Positions 19,559 through 21,303 of a stretch of DNA of 64,000 bases are shown here, in pieces (within the stretch, counting starts at the first letter, position 1; each line of letters opens with the position of its first letter). A program made the position numbers and the translations under genes. This DNA is from Flavobacterium sp. Its GTDB lineage: Bacteria > Bacteroidota > Bacteroidia > Flavobacteriales > Flavobacteriaceae. The DNA lies in assembly GCF_025352015.1 (NCBI RefSeq), contig NZ_JANXUG010000066.1:1-64000 (forward strand), read 5' to 3'. The notes below the pieces were generated by a model, which worked only from the letters and a program-made list of their open reading frames with translations, had not been told where the DNA came from and made no database searches.

Positions 19559-19590
19559 ACCGAATAAGCAATTATTCGGTTTTTTTTTGT
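19559..19590 (+). terminator. intrinsic terminator downstream of dnaK
   Basis: ACCGAATAA gcaa TTATTCGGT then T run. Confidence 0.8.
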
Positions 19591-20468
19591 TTCGTATTGA
19601 ACATTCTTTCAATAACAAACACATGAGGAAATGTTATTGCGGCTAAAAACGAGAAAAATATTGAATCAAATATTTTATATCCTTTTAGTAAAAAATACAA
19701 TACAAAAATCCCAATTATGGAAATTAACCAATAAGCAAAAGCCGATTTAATGTAGCATTTAAAATTAGGAAATGTAACTGTTCCATATAAGAATTTGATT
19801 TGATTAACTAAAGATGGTATACTGTGCCAAAAAATAAAATAAATTGTAAATGCCCATATTAAACTACCAACTTTAAAAATAATCGCAAATACTAATAGAT
19901 ACAATAATTCAATAACAAGATTTTTTTGAAATTCTTTTGAGAAATAACAACTATATAAACATAAAGCAATCAGGAGTAAGCCATCAACAATCAGTAATAA
20001 CGTAAAATTAACAAAAGCTAAATTGATATGAGTAATTTCATAAAGTATAGCAATTACTTCTTTTGTGTGGAATTGAAATAATAATAATAATATAAATAAA
20101 CCATAAATTGTATAAAATGAAGTAATCATTATTTTATTAAAGTAAATAATTTTATTCTCCCAATGTTGTTCTCCAAAGTGATAGCTGCTAACAACTATAA
20201 ATAATACCATCGCCAGCGAAGGAATTAAAATAAATAATACAGCAGCTACTAAAACGATTATTAAATATTTGAATAATATTTTCCAGTATGATTTAGACTC
20301 TTCACTATAAATCTTTTTGATTAAAAGTAAATCATTTGCTCCATGACATATACCGAAAGACAATATTAATATAAACCCTACAATAATTTGAATTTCATTT
20401 TTTATGAATGATATTAACCATAATCCCAGAAAGCTAAGTAGTATTGATAATTTAGCAATTTTAGTCAT
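19572..20468 (-). CDS. blh: Brp/Blh family beta-carotene 15,15'-dioxygenase (retinal-forming)
   Basis: Polytopic membrane protein with SFGICHGANDLLL, SSYHFGEQHW and FIFWHSIPSLVNQ His motifs; divergent neighbour of the rhodopsin gene. Confidence 0.88.
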   Translation of the reverse strand: MTKIAKLSILLSFLGLWLISFIKNEIQIIVGFILILSFGICHGANDLLLIKKIYSEESKSYWKILFKYLIIVLVAAVLFILIPSLAMVLFIVVSSYHFGEQHWENKIIYFNKIMITSFYTIYGLFILLLLFQFHTKEVIAILYEITHINLAFVNFTLLLIVDGLLLIALCLYSCYFSKEFQKNLVIELLYLLVFAIIFKVGSLIWAFTIYFIFWHSIPSLVNQIKFLYGTVTFPNFKCYIKSAFAYWLISIIGIFVLYFLLKGYKIFDSIFFSFLAAITFPHVFVIERMFNTKQKKTE

Positions 20469-20478
20469 AAATATTTTT

Positions 20479-20514
20479 TTTTGTTTAAAAATAAGTAAAA
20501 AAAAATAAACAAAA
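20479..20514. promoter_or_regulatory. dyad operator candidate 1: TTTTGTTTA-N18-TAAACAAAA (blh side)
   Basis: Perfect 9-bp inverted repeat (20479-20487 / 20506-20514) between blh and the rhodopsin gene. Confidence 0.6.
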
Positions 20515-20524
20515 TCTTTTTTTA

Positions 20525-20556
20525 TTGTTTAACTTTTTATAAATTTGATTAAACAA
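20525..20556. promoter_or_regulatory. dyad operator candidate 2: TTGTTTAA-N16-TTAAACAA bracketing the rhodopsin -7 box
   Basis: Perfect 8-bp inverted repeat; same 7-bp half-site and same N18 spacing as candidate 1. Confidence 0.62.
20540..20547 (+). promoter_or_regulatory. candidate -7 element TAAATTTG (TAnnTTTG) of the rhodopsin gene
   Basis: Matches the Bacteroidetes primary-sigma -7 consensus 31 bp before the ATG; -33 element weak (TTT at 20518-20520). Confidence 0.5.
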
Positions 20557-20577
20557 ATTAATCTAAATTATTAAATT

Positions 20578-21303
20578 ATGTTAAACACTATTTTATCTTC
20601 ATTTTTAATTGCAAAAATGCTCCCTACAGATTATGTAGGTTTTACTTTCTTTGTTGGCTGTATGGCTATGATGGCTGCTTCAGCCTTTTTCTTTTTATCA
20701 TTAAACCAGTTTGATAAAAAGTGGCGTACTTCTGTATTAGTTTCAGGTTTAATAACCTTTATTGCAGCGGTACACTATTTCTACATGAGAGATTACTGGA
20801 CTTCATTCCAAGAGTCTCCAACATTTTTCAGGTATGTGGACTGGATTTTAACAGTGCCGTTAATGTGTTTAGAATTTTATTTAATTCTAAAAGTTGCTGG
20901 TGCTAAACAAGGTTTACTTTGGAAAATGATTTTCTATTCTGTTATTATGTTAGTAACTGGTTATTTGGGTGAAGCTGTTTACCCACAAAGCGCCCAAACT
21001 TGGGGCTTTATTTCAGGTGTTGCTTACTTTGCCATTGCTTATGAAATTTGGTTAGGAAGTGCATCAAAATTAGCAAAAGATGCTGGAGGAAATGTTTTAG
21101 CTGCACACAAAATTTTGTGTTGGTTTGTATTAGTAGGTTGGGCAATTTATCCTTTAGGATACATGTTAGGCACCGATGGTTGGTACACAAGTATATTAGG
21201 TAAAGGAAATGTTGATGTTGCTTATAACATTGCTGATGCAATCAACAAAATTGGTTTTGGTTTGGTTATTTACACATTAGCTGTTAAATCTCAAAAAGAC
21301 TAA
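20578..21303 (+). CDS. proteorhodopsin, light-driven proton pump type (DTE motif)
   Basis: RYVDWILTVPLMCLEFYLIL gives D88/T92/E99 with Met96 at the tuning position; DAINKIGFGL carries the retinal Lys224; HYFYMRDYW His66. Confidence 0.96.
   Translation: MLNTILSSFLIAKMLPTDYVGFTFFVGCMAMMAASAFFFLSLNQFDKKWRTSVLVSGLITFIAAVHYFYMRDYWTSFQESPTFFRYVDWILTVPLMCLEFYLILKVAGAKQGLLWKMIFYSVIMLVTGYLGEAVYPQSAQTWGFISGVAYFAIAYEIWLGSASKLAKDAGGNVLAAHKILCWFVLVGWAIYPLGYMLGTDGWYTSILGKGNVDVAYNIADAINKIGFGLVIYTLAVKSQKD

Follow-up and report, generated by a model that had tools for sequence, protein, structure and literature searches.

Paired dyads between blh and proteorhodopsin in a Flavobacterium are likely operators of a CarH-type regulator

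Results

We analysed 64,000 nucleotides of a Flavobacterium sp. genome (contig NZ_JANXUG010000066.1, positions 1 to 64,000; hereafter the window), in which a proteorhodopsin gene and the retinal-forming gene blh diverge from a gap of 109 bp (20469-20577). The start codon of blh is an ATG at 20468 on the minus strand and that of the opsin an ATG at 20578 on the plus strand, and the blh product scores 179.5 bits against TIGR03753 (cut-off 95.25). The features of the locus are as follows.

19572..20468, minus strand: blh, Brp/Blh-family beta-carotene 15,15'-dioxygenase (retinal formation), matching PF15461 and TIGR03753
20481..20512, no strand: dyad 1, TTGTTTA-N18-TAAACAA, proximal to blh and distal to the opsin; predicted CarH-type operator of blh
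20490..20497, minus strand: degenerate -7-like box of blh, TACTTATT, at offset 15 in dyad 1, from the sequence and 33 distal dyads
20525..20556, no strand: dyad 2, TTGTTTA-N18-TAAACAA, proximal to the opsin; predicted CarH-type operator of the opsin promoter
20540..20547, plus strand: opsin -7 box TAAATTTG (consensus TANNTTTG), at offset 15 in dyad 2, from the sequence and a 67-sequence profile
20578..21303, plus strand: proteorhodopsin gene (PF01036, E=1.1e-40)

The two dyads, 44 bp apart, have the same half-sites and the same N18 spacing with zero mismatches, exactly as a preliminary description of this DNA had reported. That description had also placed a box at the same internal offset in both, which is true here, the box of dyad 1 being read on the minus strand (20497-20490). 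In Bacteroidota sigma-A promoters a -33 TTG is expected 17-23 bp upstream of the -7 box. The opsin promoter carries the TANNTTTG -7 box of this class, found as TAnnTTTG in 67 opsin-proximal dyads; inspection of the sequence revealed no TTG 17-23 bp before 20540.

Conservation of the motif in orthologous blh-opsin gaps had been set beforehand as a test. Of 80 rhodopsin loci taken from named genomes, 76 extended far enough upstream to be scanned, and the dyad was present in 33 of these as an exact match, in 59 with at most one mismatch and in 67 with at most two, compared to 0, 0.17 and 2.55 in shuffled upstream regions. The test was thus passed. A pair of dyads 40-46 bp apart (mode 45) occurs at 33 of the 76 loci, every one of them beside a divergent blh. 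In the profile of the 67 opsin-proximal dyads TAnnTTTG is conserved at offset 15-22, and in the 33 distal dyads, read toward blh, T stands at offset 15 in 85%, A at offset 16 in 70% and A at offset 20 in 97%; the degenerate blh-facing box that the preliminary description had noted in a single sequence therefore holds across species. The pairing with divergent blh and the matching -7 positions support the earlier inference that one regulator serves both genes. The extended dyad reads TTGTTTAAC-N14-GTTAAACAA, and its arm spacing is fixed, with 36 of 43 TTGTTTAA/TTAAACAA pairs from 12 genomes at N16 (equivalent to N18). Dyad-like arms with N19 instead of N18 lie upstream of a divergent carH in G099 (L253) and of one opsin (L208). 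Separately, public MAG contigs whose titles name Bifidobacterium breve and Rhodobacteraceae (L165, L213) carry flavobacterial opsin loci and are probably mislabelled or contaminated bins.

Within the window, allowing up to two mismatches gave 3 matches against 2.96 expected from dinucleotide shuffles, and both exact matches fell in the blh-opsin gap. The whole genome (2.6 Mb in 116 contigs) contains 4 exact dyads, compared to 0 for a reversed control pattern, and when spacers from N5 to N30 were allowed, 4 of 8 exact arm pairs had N18. With up to one mismatch there was no excess (16 dyads, 16 controls), so single degenerate sites need context. One exact dyad is found on contig C60, 28 bp ahead of an SRPBCC-SDR-photolyase operon. 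Another, at C88:23671-23702 (L036 9672-9703), stops 6 bp short of the ATG of a gene for a multi-helix membrane protein of 295 aa that matches nothing in Pfam or NCBIfam; this gene is a candidate for a new member of the light response. Dyads with one mismatch precede folE (GTP cyclohydrolase I) and, at C75:56167, a TetR gene at C75:56268.

The genes that have a dyad in front of them in relatives include carH, crtI, opsin, blh, the SRPBCC-SDR-photolyase operon and folE, and the enrichment that had been predicted for opsin, blh, crt and photolyase genes was thus borne out. The crtI dyad sits 0-2 nt before the ATG in several genomes, and further dyads precede mevalonate-kinase-like genes in three genomes and a ketolase-like gene; few lack a gene start nearby. 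Regulon genes for which no family search was made were named by eye. Among the latter are fasciclin-domain-like secreted proteins, which stand behind a dyad in many genomes (L094, L105, L108, L115, L125, L130, L132 and L245), including in a clade with TTGTCTA arms that is described below. A TetR-family gene also stands behind a dyad (L111, L117, L137), in some genomes beside htpG, and may encode a secondary regulator. Because many dyad-bearing genomes have no opsin, we infer that a regulon for carotenoids and repair probably existed first and that the opsin joined it later.

The preliminary description was right that the window contains no regulator gene, and its guess of a MerR-type, CarH/LitR-like regulator is now better supported than any other candidate, by co-occurrence across genomes, by the autoregulatory position of the dyad and by covariation with the recognition helix. 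The genome encodes two MerR_1 proteins, one of which, at the edge of contig C65 (L041), combines MerR_1 with B12-binding_2. Its N-terminal MerR winged helix scores 55.8 bits against PF13411 (cut-off 21.6) and its C-terminal cobalamin module 39.6 bits against PF02607 (cut-off 23). The best PDB relatives are the CarH entries 3whp and 5c8d, the phmmer alignment to 5c8d spanning the cap and B12 domains. The AdoCbl-sensing motif W-x9-EH and the His-ligand motif ExHxxG are intact, with W143, E153, H154, E191, H193 and G196 invariant in 15 aligned proteins, and the genome also encodes an AdoCbl-forming adenosyltransferase. Against the CarH repressor equivalog NCBIfam NF052513 the protein reached 73.3 bits, short of the cut-off of 400; since this is far below the cut-off, we call the regulator CarH-type only and not a CarH equivalog. 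A crtI-like gene lies directly 3' of the regulator gene, a linkage shared by relatives. No clean dyad stands in front of crtI in this genome, and its carH starts at the contig edge, which cuts off the promoter and leaves any site there out of view. The edge itself (C65:1-140) looks chimeric: coding similarity begins at AACAACATT, with unrelated sequence before it.

In relatives the promoters of carH could be read. Of 29 fetched carH genes, 27 have a TTGTTTA-N18-TGAACAA dyad, with one mismatch at most, that overlaps the start codon (aTGAACAA) and whose left arm is in turn overlapped by TAnnTTTG. With a -7 box 20-odd bases before the ATG and an operator over the start codon, these genes (L047-L075) suggest a short or nearly leaderless mRNA.

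We surveyed co-occurrence across 101 family genomes. Among those with a close CarH, 67 of 70 have at least one dyad (167 dyads, compared to 17 for the reversed control). Without CarH, dyads occur in 4 of 21 genomes (5 dyads, 7 for the control); this count leaves out G080, which is 81% complete and has 7 dyads and no CarH that we could find. The association is significant even with G080 counted among the CarH-less genomes (Fisher 2e-11), although relatedness among the genomes was not corrected for. Some rhodopsin loci in genomes with CarH have no dyad (e.g. L019, L020).

The half-site also changes with the protein. In a CarH clade whose recognition helix reads R-K-W in place of R-I-W (Ile to Lys), TTGTCTA-N18-TAGACAA with at most one mismatch lies upstream of carH in 5 of 7 genes inspected, often in two copies. 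The exact form is found only in 2 of the 101 genomes, both from this clade, where it precedes fasciclin-like and 6-pyruvoyl-tetrahydropterin-synthase-like genes, among others. G025, with a CarH divergent overall yet retaining R-I-W, has kept four TTGTTTA dyads. The Ile-to-Lys and T-to-C covariation, read from sequences uncorrected for relatedness, may represent a single evolutionary event. All three arm variants (TAAACA, TGAACA and TAGACA) fit the TnnACA core of the Thermus CarH half-site (PMC8156234).

Discussion

Together our results make it most likely that the regulator of the dyads is the CarH-type MerR-cobalamin photoreceptor encoded beside crtI on C65, for which we have no binding data. 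By computation we established the sites, their spacing and pairing, their targets, their co-occurrence with CarH, the autoregulatory site, the helix covariation and the AdoCbl-binding motif. From these we infer, with good though incomplete confidence, that the dyads are CarH-type operators of blh and opsin within one regulon, bound and repressed in the dark by AdoCbl-CarH and released by light; the binding, the repression and the release by light or B12 are all inferred. In the dark, AdoCbl-loaded CarH would hold both arms (arm TTAAACAA, core TnnACA) and mask the -7 box along with the predicted start site, so that opsin and blh stay silent at the same time. When light breaks the Co-C bond, CarH would be released and RNA polymerase could transcribe both genes. 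CarH is predicted also to govern its own gene, crtI and other carotenoid genes, the photolyase operon and folE and, in relatives, mevalonate kinase and fasciclin genes. With such a shared regulator the pump, its chromophore supply and the repair of light damage would form one regulon.

Could the motif be no more than promoter boxes (TTG and TANNTTTG) joined by chance symmetry in AT-rich DNA? The region is indeed very AT-rich, and with one or two mismatches the motif is no commoner than the control in this genome and window. Exact dyads, by contrast, are about ten times as frequent as controls in genomes with CarH and show no such excess elsewhere, and their spacing is fixed, which leaves an artefact of this kind almost no credibility. 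The control counts, the fixed spacing and the 76 rhodopsin loci set against shuffles led us to reject chance and AT-richness; the dyad as a promoter element was rejected because the position of the -7 box relative to it differs between the carH and opsin promoters. Another regulator might own the dyads, for example the TetR-family protein encoded beside htpG, with CarH merely one of its targets. A dyad lies immediately upstream of the TetR gene in G097, G057 and G020, and in our genome one lies there with one mismatch. Against this, 15 genomes with a close CarH and without that TetR hold 28 dyads, with at least one in 14 of the 15, and the half-site change follows the CarH recognition helix. 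We therefore disfavour TetR as the owner and see only a slim chance of it, while noting that the reverse test is weak, as only two CarH-less genomes have the TetR gene, G060 with one dyad and G080 with its seven.

How a CarH-type protein would act on the dyads is a separate matter. It might bind as a light- or B12-dependent activator, or respond to B12 level or to a partner photoreceptor instead of direct photolysis. An activator could reach polymerase from roughly the position at which the left arm begins, the opsin promoter lacks a TTG at the expected -33 distance, and Pseudomonas class II LitR works with a LOV partner (PMC9758184). The dyads nevertheless cover the -7 box and probable start of the opsin promoter, and the -7 box and start codon of carH, so that a bound protein would block polymerase; moreover the W-x9-EH motif is intact and the characterised relatives are repressors (PMC8156234, PMC9758184). 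We regard this alternative as unlikely, if somewhat less so than ownership by TetR. A repressor is thus favoured over an activator, as an inference from dyad position and the known CarH mechanism, and blocking position combined with known CarH chemistry (PMC8156234) points to dark repression and light release.

If dark repression by CarH is correct, production of the pump would depend on light and cobalamin supply together. Cells starved of B12 would express the opsin even in darkness, a possible reason why reports conflict over whether its expression is induced or constitutive. Energy capture, the supply of chromophore and repair by photolyase would all be tied to one B12-dependent switch, and the use of light would be linked to how much of the vitamin the water offers. 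For the Flavobacteriaceae in general, we think it probable, with less assurance than for the operators of this locus, that proteorhodopsin and the synthesis of retinal are under the direct control of a B12-based photoreceptor acting at an inverted N18 operator.

Comparison with known systems

The control of flavobacterial proteorhodopsin is presented as unresolved in the portion of a Dokdonia study available to us (PMC3587595); it now has a candidate regulator that can be named, a precisely defined putative operator and a list of predicted targets. As in our genome, blh adjoins the opsin in Dokdonia, and that portion considers opsin regulation, reports that no consensus promoter for RpoD was found ahead of the opsin genes, states that their regulation needs further work and proposes no operator or regulator. 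Our search of open-licence papers found no description of the dyad operator or of CarH control of proteorhodopsin, and the inverted N18 geometry proposed here for CarH on DNA is not described in the literature we examined; an earlier description elsewhere is possible.

Class II LitR proteins of Pseudomonas (PplR1 and PmlR2) are the regulators of light-induced photolyase, short-chain dehydrogenase, folE and cryptochrome-like genes and recognise paired half-sites, T(G/A)TACA-N12-TGTA(C/T)A (PMC9758184). They share with the flavobacterial system paired half-sites and photolyase, SDR and folE as targets, but differ from it in spacer and half-site, in the LOV partner of PmlR2 and in having no described rhodopsin targets (PMC9758184).

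CarH of Thermus thermophilus and Myxococcus xanthus are B12 photoreceptor-repressors of carotenogenesis, and the Thermus operator consists of three or four tandem 11-bp direct repeats, nAnnTnnACAn (PMC8156234). The arrangement found here does not meet a Thermus-type operator test, as the arms are inverted, the N18 is fixed and there are no conserved inner repeats; the arms stand 25 bp centre to centre rather than in tandem 11-bp repeats. Unlike in Thermus and Myxococcus, the regulator falls below the NCBIfam equivalog cut-off for CarH, opsin and blh belong to the predicted regulon and the putative operator lies over the regulator's own start codon. Common to these systems are a MerR domain joined to a cobalamin module with W-x9-EH and ExHxxG, crt genes as targets, an operator placed over the target promoter and the TnnACA core of its arms.
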